Shown one piece after another: positions 20,629 to 33,339 of a stretch of DNA of 33,339 nt (positions are counted from its first letter, which is position 1; every line of letters starts with the position of its first letter). This stretch comes from Synechococcus sp. M44_DOE_062 (lineage in GTDB: Bacteria; Cyanobacteriota; Cyanobacteriia; Thermostichales; Thermostichaceae): positions 1 to 33,339 of the forward strand of contig DVDX01000034.1 in NCBI GenBank assembly GCA_015295985.1, given 5' to 3'. The notes beneath the pieces were generated by a model. The model worked only from the letters and a program-made list of their open reading frames with translations, was not told the DNA's origin and ran no database searches. A program made the position numbers and the translations under genes.

Positions 20629-21329
20629 GAAAAACAGGGAAGGGATCCTCAAGAAACACCCAACTTTCTCTTCTCCAGGGGAAGCCTTTTGGCCCACCTA
20701 GCTGAGAAGGCTAAACTGCACCTTCTGGAAAGACCCATGCAGCCCTGAACAAAGCTGTTCGCGTCAGCGGGCTGTCCCTCAGCCCCCAGCCGGTACTTCT
20801 CAGCTAGGTAGGCATTCAACTTGCACAGGTTGTCTTTACCCAGTGTGTGGTAGCCGCTTGTGAGCTTTGCGTAGCAACAACAAGAGGTACCAGCAACCGG
20901 CTTGCCATCCAATCGCCATGTTCTTGGGCGCCATGGCTGGTAAGAATTGTGCACAGCGCCCCCAGCCCAGGATGGGAACCTTGTTCGCGCCGTCGGCACG
21001 GAGTGCTCTGGCTGTGGGGAGCCTTTGCTTAGCTTGCGGAGATCGTTGGCAAACTTCTAGCCCCCAGTTATGGGCAGGGCGGGCCACACCGGAGTGCTGG
21101 GCAGCCAAGGTTCTCTGTTTGTTGTAGAGGCTTTGTCCCCCTATCGAGAACAGACTGAGCTCTGCCCCAAACTCCAGCAGCATGCTTCCCCCCGTTTCCA
21201 CAGCCGCTTCACACAGTTTACAGAAGAAGCTCAAAAACCCAAAGACCTAGTCCTGCCCCTCCAATCAACCAAAGGCAAGCGGGGTATCGTATGTATTGAA
21301 GTGTGGTCGCGTCTAGAACCCATCTCATC
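20629..21329. other. Gene-poor interval of about 700 bases
   Basis: I see no gene that I can support. Open frames exist on both strands, but their translations are rich in Cys, Trp, Arg and Ser without family motifs, and none has a good ribosome-binding site. It must hold the promoters of the divergent esterase cluster and the FHA-cyclase. A decayed gene or mobile-element remnant is possible. Confidence 0.5.
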
Positions 21330-22346
21330 ATGAGCGTCACCAGCGAATCTGCTGCCACCGCCGCACCCTATGTGATTTTAAAAGAGCCGGATGGCAGCCA
21401 GAGGAAACACATCCTTTCGGGAGCGACCGCTTGGACCCTAGGCCGCGATGAGGACAACGCCATCGTCTTGAGCGATCCCAGCGTTTCCCGCCAGCATGCC
21501 CTGCTGCAATACCTCGACAACAACAGCATCTATCTCATCGATCTCGGTAGCCGCAACGGCTCGTTTGTCAACAATCGCCGTGTCAGCATCCCCACCCTCC
21601 TGCAGGATGGGGATCGCCTTACCCTTGGACAATCCCAGCTTGAGTTCCACAGCGGATCCCCGGCCAGCTCAGAACCCAGCGCTGCGGCCAAACCTTCGGA
21701 CACCCTGGTTCTACAAACCCGCTGGCTGATCTCGGTGGCAGTGGTGGATGTGCGAGGGTACGGACAACTGACTCAACAACTGGACGAGCGCCTGCTTTCC
21801 CAGGTGATGGGAGATTGGTTCCGGCGGGGTGGGGATATCATTCAGCAGCATGGGGGCACTGTCGATAAGTACATTGGCGATGCAATCATGGCCGTTTGGT
21901 TCCATGTGCCCCAAGCCAACACCACTCCTCTAGGAGTTGAAGCGCCGGGAATTCACCTCGATGTGAAGTCGGTTCTGCAGGCCATAGCGAAGCTGTTTCA
22001 GATGACCGAGCAACTGAACGGTGAGTTTCCGCTGCCTTCTCCCATTCGTCTAGGGGCAGGGGTTAACACAGGCTCGGCGATCGTGCGCCAGGTGGGCAAC
22101 AACACCCGCCAAGAATATACGGCCCTGGGAGATACAGTGAATTTGGCCTTCCGCATTGAGAGCGCTACCCGCACCCTCAACGCCGACTTGGCGATTAGCC
22201 AGGACACCTACACCTGCTTGGCCAAACAACTGGGGCAGGCAGCCACCTGCTTCTCGCATCAGGCCGTAGAGCTGAAGGGGTACGCCCACCGTCATCAGGT
22301 GTACTACTGCGATGTGCGTTCTTTGCAAGCCGTTCTCAGTCTCTAG
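21330..22346 (+). CDS. FHA-domain class III adenylate cyclase
   Basis: Predicted 338 residues from the ATG at 21330; a GTG at 21303 would add nine residues. An N-terminal forkhead-associated domain (about 15-105) shows WTLGRDEDNAIVL, DPSVSRQHALL and LIDLGSRNGSFVN, the phosphothreonine-binding residues. The C-terminal class III cyclase domain (about 130-320) shows the metal Asp in VAVVDVRGYG, the second Asp in DKYIGDAIMAVW (with an adjacent Lys as an adenine-type base contact) and ALGDTVNLAFRIE. Catalytic residues appear intact, so cyclic AMP synthesis is expected. Binding of a phosphorylated partner through the FHA domain would couple it to Ser/Thr kinases such as the one at 9933-11537; that link is an inference. 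Cytoplasmic. Confidence 0.9.
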   Translation: MSVTSESAATAAPYVILKEPDGSQRKHILSGATAWTLGRDEDNAIVLSDPSVSRQHALLQYLDNNSIYLIDLGSRNGSFVNNRRVSIPTLLQDGDRLTLGQSQLEFHSGSPASSEPSAAAKPSDTLVLQTRWLISVAVVDVRGYGQLTQQLDERLLSQVMGDWFRRGGDIIQQHGGTVDKYIGDAIMAVWFHVPQANTTPLGVEAPGIHLDVKSVLQAIAKLFQMTEQLNGEFPLPSPIRLGAGVNTGSAIVRQVGNNTRQEYTALGDTVNLAFRIESATRTLNADLAISQDTYTCLAKQLGQAATCFSHQAVELKGYAHRHQVYYCDVRSLQAVLSL

Positions 22347-26825: not shown

Positions 26826-28358
26826 TCAAGCTCCAAAAGCTTCTTTGGCGGCGTACATGACCTCCACACTGATCTCGGTCAAGCCCCGTTCGCGGGCAAA
26901 TTTTTCCGTGTTGCGCTTAACCTTGCCGCGCACAAAGCCGGGCACCTTGTTCAGTTCGGCTTGGGCTTCCCGCGTCCAGATAAGGTCGGAATCGGCGCTT
27001 AGGCTCTTGTGGATTGCCTCTTTGGTATCGTGGCCACCGAAGATCTCCAGCAGATGATCCTCCATGCCTAGGGTAAAGGAGTTGTAGATCAAATCAACAA
27101 TCTGGTTGGCGCCCTCGTAGCCCAAAAAGGGCTTGTAGCCGATGGGAAAATCCTGCACGTGGATGGGAGCAGAGATGACCCCACAAGGGATCCGCAGCCG
27201 TTTGCCCACATGGCGCTCCATCTGAGTGCCGAAAATCGCTGCAGGTTCTGCCTGGGCAATGGCGTCCGCCACGCGGGTGTGATCCTCCGTCATCAAGACC
27301 TGATCGCAATACCCTCCCACCTCTGCCTGGAACCACTCCCCATCGTAGGTGCAATAGCTGCCCGCCCACACCACGTGGATCCCCATCTCACGGGCCAAGA
27401 TCTTGGTGATTGCCGCCGCGTGGGTGGCATCCCCGAAGACCACGGCTTTTTTGCCGGTTAGGTTTTGGCAATCGATGGAGCGGGAAAACCAGGCCGCTTG
27501 GGAAATGTGCAGCGTTTGCTCCTGGATGTAGGCTTCATAATCGACAGGGATCCCTTGCTCATTCAGGATCTTCTGGATCTGGCGGATGAAGCGGGCCGTT
27601 TCCACCACCCCCATCGGGGTGATCTCGATGGAAGGCGTGCCAAACTCCTCCTGCAAGTAGCGAGCTGTCATCAGCCCCAGCTCCCGATAGGGCACTACAT
27701 TAAACCAAGCCCGCCCCAGGTGCTTGAGATCGTGAACGCTGGCCCCCTGGGGGATCACCAGGTTGAGATCGATATCCAGATCTCGCAGCAGCGCCTTCAG
27801 CTCCCGCAGATCGTGGGCATGGTGAAACCCCAGGCTGGAGATGCCAAGGATGTTGCAGGAAGGACGCTCCGTCTTCTGGGGCGAGTCGTTCAGCTCCCCC
27901 TGTTTGCGAGCTTTGGTGATGTAGAACTCCACAATTTGGTGCAGGGTGCGATCTGCGGCCTGCAATTCGTTAACCCGGTAGTGGTTGACATCTGCCAGCA
28001 TTACGTCGCAGTGACTGGCCAACTGGGCCTGCCGGACAAAGTGGTGCAGATCTTCCTGCAAAATGCTGGAAGTGCAGGTGGGGGTGACCACGATCAAATC
28101 CGGGTGCTCCTCCCCGTCTTTGCGGACGATGTTGCGAATCACCTTTTCGTCGGATCCCCGCGCCAACACCTGCCGATCGACAACGCTGGTGGTCACCGGA
28201 GTAAAGTCCCGCTCTCGCTCCAACATGGAACGCATCACGTTGAAGTAATCGTCCCCAAGGGGAGCGTGCATAATGCTGTGAACGTTTTTGAAGGAACTGG
28301 CCACCCGCAGCGTGCCGATATGGGCAGGGCCAGCGTACATCCAATAGGCCAACTTCAT
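26826..28358 (-). CDS. chlB: Light-independent protochlorophyllide reductase subunit B
   Basis: Part of the dark-operative, nitrogenase-like enzyme that reduces protochlorophyllide to chlorophyllide, together with ChlL and ChlN, which are not in this window. Predicted 510 residues, full length. The N-terminus [20 protein letters not shown] is highly typical. LGDD carries Asp36, the unusual Asp ligand of the [4Fe-4S] cluster in the NB protein, and [10 protein letters not shown] carries the conserved Cys near 95. The nitrogenase-component-1-like domain covers about 1-430 and the proto-chlorophyllide-reductase C-terminal domain the last 50. GAGAGG lies 6 bases before the ATG. It is divergent from the PF06967-type gene, with a 600-base regulatory gap. 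Presence supports chlorophyll synthesis in the dark or at low oxygen, fitting a microbial mat. Confidence 0.97.
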
Positions 28359-30470: not shown

Positions 30471-30691
30471 GTGGTTTTCCCCTGATTTTCTTCTGAACCG
30501 AGACTATGATAGCTTGCTGCTCCTTCGCAATCCTCTGGCGAAGGGAGGTGCGGCACGAATATCGGCCAAGGCACAGCAGATGTTGGTGGCACGCTGCCAG
30601 GGATCCCAAAGACCTGCGGCCCGCTGGTGCGATCGGAGGGCTTTTCTTGATTAACTGCTCCCCTGTGGGGCCGATCATGCTACCATTCAAG

Positions 30692-30903
30692 AGGAAAGGG
30701 AGTAGTCAGGCGGCTTACCGCCCTCTGCATCGACATACTGGCTAAAAACAGCCCGGTGCAAGAGACGAAGCAGGCCCGTTGGGTTGCTTTGGTGACGAGA
30801 CTTTCACTGAGTTCACGCAGAGGTGAGCTTGGTGAGTCCGTCTGACTTCTCCAGCCTTCACCTCCAAGCGTTAGCCAATTTCCCACGCAAGAGAGGTTGG
30901 AGG
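30692..30903 (+). promoter_or_regulatory. yybP-ykoY-like manganese riboswitch and expression platform
   Basis: The leader of the Gdt1-family gene shows the hallmark segments of the yybP-ykoY aptamer: AAAGGGAGTAG (30695-30705), CGACATACTGG (30731-30741) and TGACGAGACTTTC (30793-30805). GAAAG (30694-30698) can pair with CTTTC (30801-30805) to close it. Internal stems: GGCGG/CCGCC (30709-30722), GGCT/AGCC (30740-30753) and a long hairpin at 30768-30789. Downstream, CCTCCAA (30861-30867) can pair with the ribosome-binding segment TTGGAGG (30897-30903), while TCACCTC (30858-30864) can instead pair with GAGGTGA (30820-30826). This gives two mutually exclusive folds and suggests translational control by Mn2+. 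Known in other bacteria before Mn exporters; the switching model is inferred. Confidence 0.72.
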
Positions 30904-30910
30904 CTAGACA

Positions 30911-31561
30911 ATGTGGGCCGGTTTTGCATCAAGTTTGCTGTTGGTTACGGTAGCGGAGTTTGGGGACAAAACCTTTTTTACCCCCCTAATTCTGGCTATG
31001 CGGCACCCGCGCCGCTGGGTTTTCTTGGGAACGTGGCTAGCTTTGGCCGTGATGACCTTGCTGGCGGTGGTGGTCGGGAAGATGCTTTTCAAGCTGCTGC
31101 CGCCGCTGAGCATGCGAGTGTTATCGGCTGGGGTTTTTGCAACTTTTGGGCTAAGAATGCTCTGGCAAGCTTACAAGATGACTCCCCAGCAGGAAAAAGA
31201 AGAAGAGGAAGAAGCCCTCAGACTGGTGGAGCAGGCGGAAGAAAAAGGTGCGGGCCGCGGCGGTGCTTGGGCCATTGTGTGGGAAGCCTTTAGCTTGACG
31301 GCCTTGGCCGAGTTCGGGGATAAAACCCAGATTGCCACCGTTTCTTTAGCGGCCACCCACCCGGAATTCAGTGTATGGGCAGGGGCTACCCTCGGCCATG
31401 GGTTGATGGTGGGGTTGGCGGTGGTAGGAGGTCGCTTTCTAGCAGCTCACATCTCTGAACGCGCCGTGCATTGGGTGGGAGGCGGCTTGTTTCTGGTGTT
31501 TGCTCTGATGATCGGTTGGGAGCTACTGGGATCCGGGATCATCCAAATTCCTGTTCGATGA
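30911..31561 (+). CDS. Gdt1 / UPF0016 family Mn2+/Ca2+ exporter
   Basis: Predicted 216 residues, an inner- or thylakoid-membrane transporter with about six helices arranged as two repeats. Each repeat carries the family signature E-x-G-D-K-(T/S): AEFGDKTFF (about 15) and AEFGDKTQIA (about 136), which bind the ion. A highly charged cytoplasmic loop with a run of Glu (about 95-105) separates the halves. In cyanobacteria a member of this family exports manganese from the cytoplasm (Mnx). A GGAGG ribosome-binding site lies 7 bases before the ATG and can be masked by the upstream riboswitch. The 3' end overlaps mgtC by 23 bases. Neighbouring MgtC and MgtE genes point to divalent-metal homeostasis. 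Confidence 0.92.
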   Translation: MWAGFASSLLLVTVAEFGDKTFFTPLILAMRHPRRWVFLGTWLALAVMTLLAVVVGKMLFKLLPPLSMRVLSAGVFATFGLRMLWQAYKMTPQQEKEEEEEALRLVEQAEEKGAGRGGAWAIVWEAFSLTALAEFGDKTQIATVSLAATHPEFSVWAGATLGHGLMVGLAVVGGRFLAAHISERAVHWVGGGLFLVFALMIGWELLGSGIIQIPVR

Positions 31562-32240
31562 TCCGCCATCTAGCAGTGATCACGCCTGGCTCTAGGCTGA
31601 GGCGGCTGACGACAAGTTCTAGGGCTTGGTCATCGCGGGTCTGGGTGACCAGCTCTGCTTCGACTTTGACCAAATCAGGCTTGTCCTCCAGGTCTTCGCT
31701 GTAGAGGGCGCGCAGTTTGAGATGGGTGGGAGCTATGCCCTGCAGGAGCAAGGCGCGGATATGGGTCTCTGCTTGGCTTCTGCAGATGAACGAACACTCG
31801 TAGACCAGTTCCAGTTCTGTGCCTTTCAAAGGCTGTTGGTTGATGCGGTAGCCCAGTGGACGCAGTAGGACGTTGGAAATCAGCACAGCTCCTGCCCCAA
31901 TGACAGCTTGGGGAATGTACCCCGATCCGGCAAAGGCTCCCACCGCGGCTGCACACCAGATGGTGGCGGCGGTGTTCAGGCCACGGACGCTGGCTCCTTC
32001 CTTGAGGATCACGCCACCGGCCAAAAAGCCAATCCCCGATACCACCTGGGCGGCAATACGGGTCGGGCTGCTTTCATCAGGGGTGAGAACCGAGAGCATG
32101 ACAAACAAAGCTGCACCCGTGGCCACCAAGGTGTTGGTGCGTAAGCCGGCCATACGTTGCCGCCACTGTCGCTCCAGCCCAATGAGGGATCCCAGAACAA
32201 AGGCAACGGCCAAACGCAAGGTGAAGTCAATCCAGGTCAT
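31539..32240 (-). CDS. MgtC/SapB family membrane protein
   Basis: Predicted 233 residues. The N-terminal MgtC domain (about 1-135) has five membrane helices and the family signatures GSLIGLERQWRQR, GLRTNTLVATGAALF, RIAAQVVSGIGFLAGGVIL and GLNTAATIWCAAAVGAFAG. The C-terminal cytoplasmic part (about 140-233) is an ACT-like regulatory domain ending in GVITARWRIIEQEFG. MgtC is linked to growth at low magnesium and, in pathogens, to inhibition of the ATP synthase; the role in cyanobacteria is not settled. It overlaps the Gdt1-family gene tail-to-tail by 23 bases and follows the 67-residue gene by 27 bases. Confidence 0.92.
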   Translation of the reverse strand: MTWIDFTLRLAVAFVLGSLIGLERQWRQRMAGLRTNTLVATGAALFVMLSVLTPDESSPTRIAAQVVSGIGFLAGGVILKEGASVRGLNTAATIWCAAAVGAFAGSGYIPQAVIGAGAVLISNVLLRPLGYRINQQPLKGTELELVYECSFICRSQAETHIRALLLQGIAPTHLKLRALYSEDLEDKPDLVKVEAELVTQTRDDQALELVVSRLSLEPGVITARWRIIEQEFG

Positions 32241-32666: not shown

Positions 32667-33339
32667 TTAAAACTCGACTTCAACCCCGACCAGCCAACTC
32701 ACCAGCGTGAAATACACCCAAAGTCCGGTGAAGTCTTTGATGGTGGTGATGAAAGGGTCTGCTCCAGGGGCATGGTCAAAACCCAGCTTTAGCATCACCC
32801 AAGGCAAAATGGCGCCCAAGACAGCTCCCAGCGTGATCACCACAGCCAGAGCCAAGCCCACCGCCAGACCCAGTTGCGGGATCCCATTGGGCACCCCCTG
32901 CCAGAAGTAGGCAATCACCCCAGCCGTGGCCCCCAGGAGCACCCCAATAATCGCGCCGATGCTGGCCTCCCGCAGCAAATAGGGGAAAAACTGCCGCACG
33001 TTGATGTGGTTCCAAGCCAGGCCGCGGGCAAAGATCGTCGTGGATTGGGTGCCGACATTGCCGCCCATATCCATGACCAAGGGGATGAAGATGGCCGCTG
33101 CCGTCACCGCCTCCAACACCTCCTCAAAGGTTTCGATCACCCCCCCACCAACATGCCGCCGATCAGGGTGATGATCAGAAACAAGATGCGCAGACGGACG
33201 GCATACCAACGGGAGCCTTTGACCAGGCGCTCGCTCCAGACCTTGTCTCGGCTGAGCAAGCTGCCCACCCCTGCTTGGGCCAGAGCGGCGTCGGTGGCTT
33301 CTTCTTCCACCAAGTTGATGACATCTTCAAAGGTAATAT
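32667..33339 (-). pseudogene. mgtE: Magnesium transporter MgtE, C-terminal part, reading frame broken
   Basis: Partial, running off the right edge. The right-hand segment (33339 to 33140) encodes the end of the CBS region and first helix: ITFEDVINLVEEEATD, then LRILFLIITLIGGMLVGG, and then meets TGA. The MgtE sequence continues in another frame from 33140 leftwards as VIETFEEVLEAVTAAA, MGGNVGTQSTTIFARG (the family signature) and three more helices ending WLVGVEVEF. The break coincides with seven Cs (33140-33146); an eighth would restore MLVGGVIETFEE. It may be an authentic mutation, a phase-variable tract, ribosomal slippage or a sequencing error. MgtE is a magnesium channel gated by cytoplasmic magnesium. 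Confidence 0.8.

Follow-up and report, generated by a model that had tools for sequence, protein, structure and literature searches.

In Synechococcus sp. M44_DOE_062, translation of a GDT1-family (Mnx-type) Mn exporter is very probably switched on by a yybP-ykoY Mn2+ riboswitch in the leader of its gene. The window (the whole stretch of DNA that was analysed, 33,339 nucleotides of contig DVDX01000034.1) carries the aptamer at positions 30694-30805, which is assigned to the yybP-ykoY (Mn2+) class on its sequence and predicted structure. A broader reading is less certain but is still considered more likely than not: the leader would belong to a widespread, undescribed cyanobacterial subclass of Mn2+ riboswitches with its own three-step relay, in which an element B and an element D bearing the ribosome-binding site (RBS) compete for an element C under kinetic control. 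Such a subclass would fill a gap as a sensor of Mn excess in oxygenic phototrophs, with exporter translation as its target, and in one genome or more the whole cassette would have been transferred to mntP. Photosynthetic water splitting requires manganese, and Mn excess is toxic to cyanobacteria. If the broader reading is true, about half of the sampled cyanobacterial genomes would have a sensor for Mn excess in the form of a riboswitch controlling exporter translation; this would also offer a simple testable prediction and an existing genetic part with which Mn could be sensed in phototrophs.

Aptamer and manganese site

All features are on the forward strand. The switch helix P1.1 is formed by GAAAG (30694-30698) and CTTTC (30801-30805), the last three bases of which (30803-30805) also belong to element A of the expression platform. 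Between P1.1 and P1.2 lies the loop L1, with GGAGTA on its 5′ side (30699-30704) and GAGA on its 3′ side (30797-30800); both sides are invariant among 24 aligned leaders, the flanking helices covary, and the E. coli mntP leader has the identical GGAGTA. P1.2 pairs GTC (30705-30707) with GAC (30794-30796), and all three of its pairs show compensatory changes in the aligned leaders. The four-way junction is completed by three hairpins found in predicted folds: P2 (GGCGG-CTTA-CCGCC, 30709-30722), all five pairs of which covary in other genera; P3 (30726-30760), supported by the RF00080 match and by covariation, also outside the genus; and P4 (30764-30791, limits approximate), which is supported by the fold alone and varies in length and sequence among relatives. 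The two hallmark motifs named in the preliminary description, GGGAGTAG (30698-30705) and GACGAGACTTT (30794-30804), are present at these positions, as are all the pairing segments that it listed.

In crystal structures, Mn2+ lies between loops L1 and L3, where the N7 atom of an adenosine that never varies contacts it; the L3 of Xanthomonas oryzae reads ACA48UACU (PMC6754395). The L3 of the window, ACATACT (30733-30739, within P3), is its letter-for-letter counterpart, and position 30735 corresponds to the Mn-contacting A48. Both Mn-site loops, including the Mn-discriminating adenosine, are invariant in the aligned leaders.

The aptamer helices are paired in 98.1% of the cells of the 24-leader alignment, and 11 of the 20 pairs have changes on both sides. 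Double changes separate the source genus from the remaining leaders (one P1.1 pair from G-C to A-U; P1.2 from GCU:AGC to GUC:GAC). When the partner strand was slid by 1 to 3 columns as a control, aptamer pairing fell to 24-46%. Covariation scores 0.344 in the alignment and 0.157 in shuffles; as the sequences are related, the shuffles do not count as independent events. The fold of the leader has a z-score of -4.2 relative to shuffled sequences.

A TATAAT-like hexamer ends 7-15 nt 5′ of P1.1 in 81 of 113 cyanobacterial leaders. At a similar place, the window has a -10-like element, TACCAT (30681-30686), preceded by TGC; a generic promoter scan found no full sigma-70 site. The probable transcription start is therefore close to the 5′ end of P1.1.

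Model searches and class assignment

The Infernal model R2, trained on other cyanobacterial genera only and with the source genus left out, matches positions 30692-30844 (84.5 bits, E 2.6e-19). With the loops that match those of crystallised aptamers and the covarying helices, this match bears out the earlier assignment to a yybP-ykoY-like class. The Rfam search at the gathering threshold gave no match anywhere in the window. Against the leader, RF00080 scored 22.2 bits of the 45 that constitute its gathering score, in hairpin P3 only (E 2.5e-4 in a 361-base search). The absence of an Rfam hit had been proposed as a refutation. Such a criterion asks too much, for an experimentally proven riboswitch, that of the E. 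coli mntP leader, reaches 41.6 bits and is likewise below 45. Since a proven member is also excluded, the cut-off is a database threshold and not a defining feature of the class.

The cyanobacterial model R1 recognises the E. coli mntP leader (44.9 bits, 3.6e-10), in the aptamer alone (positions 7-114 of 157). A motif scan yielded 80 named loci, of which 11 are cyanobacterial; these have scores of 98.8 bits or more, and no other locus exceeds 66.4 bits. Together, these scores and the match to the E. coli aptamer indicate that the aptamer is common to several phyla and that the full unit, with the A:B hairpin, is a cyanobacterial subclass. The model also matches the minus strand at 30795-30861 (16 bits), which is explained by the near-palindromic A:B hairpin.

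Expression platform

Four elements are shared by cyanobacterial leaders 3′ of L1: A (CACTGAGTTCAC type), B (GTGAGCTTGGTG), C (CATCAAGCTCAC) and D (GAGGAGCTTGATG, with the Shine-Dalgarno sequence). They form a relay of alternative helices, A:B, B:C and C:D. In the window, A is TTCACTGAGTTCAC (30803-30816) and is predicted to pair with B in the ligand-free state; B is GTGAGCTTGGTGAG (30823-30836), the partner of A or C; C is TCTCCAGCCTTCACC (30848-30862), the partner of B or D; and D is GAGGTTGGAGG (30893-30903), with the Shine-Dalgarno GGAGG at 30899-30903. Because C pairs with either of them, B and D are look-alikes that compete for it. The key element missing from the preliminary description is the A:B hairpin, through which aptamer and switch are connected. 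The bases with which it begins double as the 3′ strand of the ligand-stabilised P1.1: this helix uses 30801-30805 and A begins at 30803, so P1.1 and A compete.

The three helices are supported to different degrees in the alignments. A:B is 97.9% paired (24 leaders), with one pair changed on both sides. B:C is 89.2% paired (49 leaders), with compensatory changes at 6 of 12 pairs; in the source genus this helix is weaker (about -8 to -16 kcal/mol, against a mean of -19.6 kcal/mol elsewhere). C:D is 79.3% paired, a count lowered by an alignment of D that is one base off in the source genus, and compensatory changes occur at 7 of 8 pairs. The C:D pairing was also assessed by a swap test. The mean energy is -19.1 kcal/mol with the leader's own D, -14.7 with the D of other species and -11.5 with shuffled C; in 101 of the 114 leaders, the own duplex is stronger than the average swapped one.

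The preliminary description had built the switch from three other pairings, whose conservation was examined among the seven leaders of the genus. One is largely conserved, one is lineage-local and one is unsupported. The pairing of GAGGTGA (30820-30826) with TCACCTC (30858-30864) holds nearly throughout the genus; it belongs to the B:C helix, which it prolongs into the loop of A:B. The pairing of CCTCCAA (30861-30867) with TTGGAGG (30897-30903) fails as a general lock on the RBS: it occurs only in the four closest leaders, and 3-5 of its 7 pairs are lost in L016, L017 and L018. By sequence comparison it is a lineage-local register. The genus-wide register is TCTCCAGCCTT (30848-30858) with GAGGTTGGAGG, which keeps at least 9 of 11 pairs in all seven leaders, a gap in C being counted as a miss. 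The pairing of CCTCTGC (30722-30728) with GCAGAGG (30817-30823) breaks down in three of the seven (two pairs in L016, two in L018, one in L017), and CCTCTGC overlaps the stem of P3; the pairing was rejected on these grounds.

Proposed mechanism and alternative explanations

Mn2+ stabilises P1.1 (PMC6754395), and the E. coli mntP member is a Mn-induced translational ON switch (PMC11647493). From the structure it can be inferred that Mn also acts as the ON signal here and that the leader of the source lineage depends on Mn. The earlier proposal of a start site freed by Mn2+ is thus retained as to its sense, and the pairings that it invoked are replaced. At low Mn2+, P1.1 would be weak and its 3′ strand would join A in the A:B hairpin; C would be left free and would later pair with D, closing the Shine-Dalgarno sequence. 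With Mn2+ bound between L1 and L3, P1.1 would be held and A shortened; B could then pair with C before D is transcribed, D would be free for a time and a ribosome could start.

Leaders ended before D were folded with and without an enforced P1.1, a stand-in for bound Mn2+ (energies at 37 °C, which include neither metal nor tertiary contacts). Without enforcement, B is paired with A at 76% and with C at 11%; with P1.1 enforced, the values are 4% and 84%. B:C is then ahead in 98 of 102 leaders, against 11 of 102 with shuffled C. For the leader of the window, the pairing of B with A and with C passes from 0.79 and 0.00 to 0.00 and 0.86. At full length, C:D wins at equilibrium either way (mean unpaired Shine-Dalgarno 0.15 without and 0.19 with P1.1). 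Since a closed D is the predicted state of lowest energy for the complete RNA, whether or not P1.1 is enforced, the switch needs timing and is probably kinetic (co-transcriptional). A purely thermodynamic switch was rejected on the predicted energies. The barrier from ON to OFF, from a saddle search that is a rough heuristic, is 15.6 kcal/mol in the window and 9.2 kcal/mol on average.

No terminator-like site and no U tract were found in the leader of the window, so control is most likely translational. This bears on the explanation that the same aptamer works mainly by transcription attenuation, with A:B as a terminator at low Mn and C:D as a by-product. Terminators are used by the yybP-ykoY members of Bacillus subtilis and Lactococcus lactis, according to the literature, and a U-rich tract (e.g. 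GGGGTCTTTT) follows B in 42 of 102 leaders; these relatives may add attenuation. Attenuation needs neither C nor D, yet both are conserved and covary with or without the tract, and as the main mode of control it is considered unlikely.

Even less probable is a cyanobacterial ligand other than Mn2+, i.e. another cation of GDT1 proteins such as Ca2+, or a loss of ligand control. Eukaryote GDT1 proteins do also move Ca2+ and H+ (PMC7380456), but the invariance of both Mn-site loops, the discriminating adenosine included, and the presence of one copy 5′ of MntP, a dedicated Mn efflux pump, argue for Mn2+. The least probable of the explanations considered is that the RBS hairpin is an RNA thermometer, or the leader a constitutive low-expression one with no functioning switch. 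The great stability of C:D, and the small effect of an enforced P1.1 on full-length folding, would fit either. Neither accounts for the occurrence of the same aptamer plus A:B in 72 of 130 sampled cyanobacterial genera, and a thermometer would leave the covariation of B:C and the overlap of P1.1 with A without a role. The Mn2+-dependent translational switch is preferred.

Distribution and partner genes

A scan of 59 relatives with RF00080 found no genome at the gathering score and sub-threshold matches in 24. In the first 20 sub-threshold loci fetched, a GDT1 gene lies directly downstream on the same strand (20/20). This association is independent evidence, as the search for leaders made no use of the gene. 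Of the 291 genomes of the class, 142 (about half) have a match to the cyanobacterial model, as do 72 of the 130 sampled genera. GDT1 is present at 106 of the 110 loci of leaders fetched from these matches; when the motif was required strictly, 104 instances were counted, 99 of them 5′ of GDT1, on the same strand and at the expected spacing. In the genus of G258, one of five genomes has a model match, which indicates that the unit is patchy and was gained or lost within genera.

A few leaders have other partners. L129 (genome G126) carries the whole cyanobacterial unit, including the RBS look-alike, 5′ of the Mn efflux pump MntP (PF02659, 3.2e-50). The partner of L160 is a GDT1 gene with a single domain. 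L071, one of the three copies in genome G070, is a well-preserved riboswitch 5′ of a dehydrogenase-like ORF; no partner gene could be recognised for L099; and an extra copy at L103 lies 5′ of a cytochrome b561-like ORF; the names of both ORFs come from reading their translations and not from a family search. L071, L099 and the extra copy at L103 look like strays, and L071 is perhaps a stray duplicate. Genome G001, of the source genus, has two two-domain GDT1 genes about 28 kb apart, each with its own riboswitch (L022, L020).

Exporter gene and neighbouring genes

The Gdt1-family exporter gene placed downstream by the preliminary description is confirmed as to its family: positions 30911-31561 (+) encode a two-domain GDT1/Mnx-type transporter of 216 aa (PF01169, 155.5 bits, 4.7e-46, two domain copies). 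EFGDKT, a form of the GDT1 family motif E-x-G-D-(K/R)-(S/T), occurs twice in the chain. By homology to Mnx, the product is predicted to be a Mn exporter. On C83, the source genome has two further GDT1 matches, each in a short frame of its own. The Hmx importers of Synechocystis are arranged in this way (2024 study), and the C83 pair may correspond to them. The only riboswitch model match in the source genome is the one 5′ of the two-domain GDT1 gene.

Divalent-cation genes are abundant around GDT1: an MgtC family gene and, nearby, an MgtE-type gene. The MgtC family gene (31539-32240, -) is convergent with the GDT1 gene, with a 23-base overlap at its 3′ end. The MgtE-type divalent cation transporter gene (32667-33209, -; PF01769, 8.3e-33) has, around 33140, its upstream part in another frame and a stop where the conserved part starts. 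It appears frameshifted: either a disrupted gene or an assembly error. Elsewhere in the window, 21303-22343 (+) encodes an FHA domain fused to an adenylate/guanylate cyclase catalytic domain, and 26829-28358 encodes a protochlorophyllide reductase-type subunit.

Comparison with known systems

The literature consulted gave no description of a yybP-ykoY riboswitch in cyanobacteria, although the data of Dambach 2015 and Zeinert 2018 may mention members. A 2019 review of cyanobacterial Mn homeostasis does not mention riboswitches. A 2024 study gives ManSR as the only known regulator, reports mnx mRNA to be unchanged under Mn excess and assigns no riboswitch. According to a GDT1 review, 328 of 333 bacterial UPF0016 genes are under a yybP-ykoY riboswitch; the data set behind this figure may include cyanobacteria.

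Relative to the RF00080 members known from crystals (X. oryzae, L. lactis), the leader has the same four-way junction (P1.1, L1, P1.2, P2, P3 with L3, P4), an L1 of the GGAGUA type and an L3, ACAUACU, identical to that of X. oryzae. It differs in its score below the gathering score, in a P1.1 of just 5-6 pairs and in a platform unlike the terminator type. With the E. coli mntP riboswitch it shares the aptamer (match of 44.9 bits), and there too the RBS of an exporter gene for Mn becomes accessible in response to the metal; in E. coli, however, no A:B part is recognised by R1 and the exporter is MntP, not GDT1. The likeness to Mnx/SynPAM71 (UPF0016/GDT1 of Synechocystis) is in the GDT1 family and in cyanobacterial Mn export, whereas the published Mn regulation of cyanobacteria is by ManSR only. 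The aptamer class and the Mn-ON logic are already known; its wide use in cyanobacteria and the relay switch appear to be undescribed so far.
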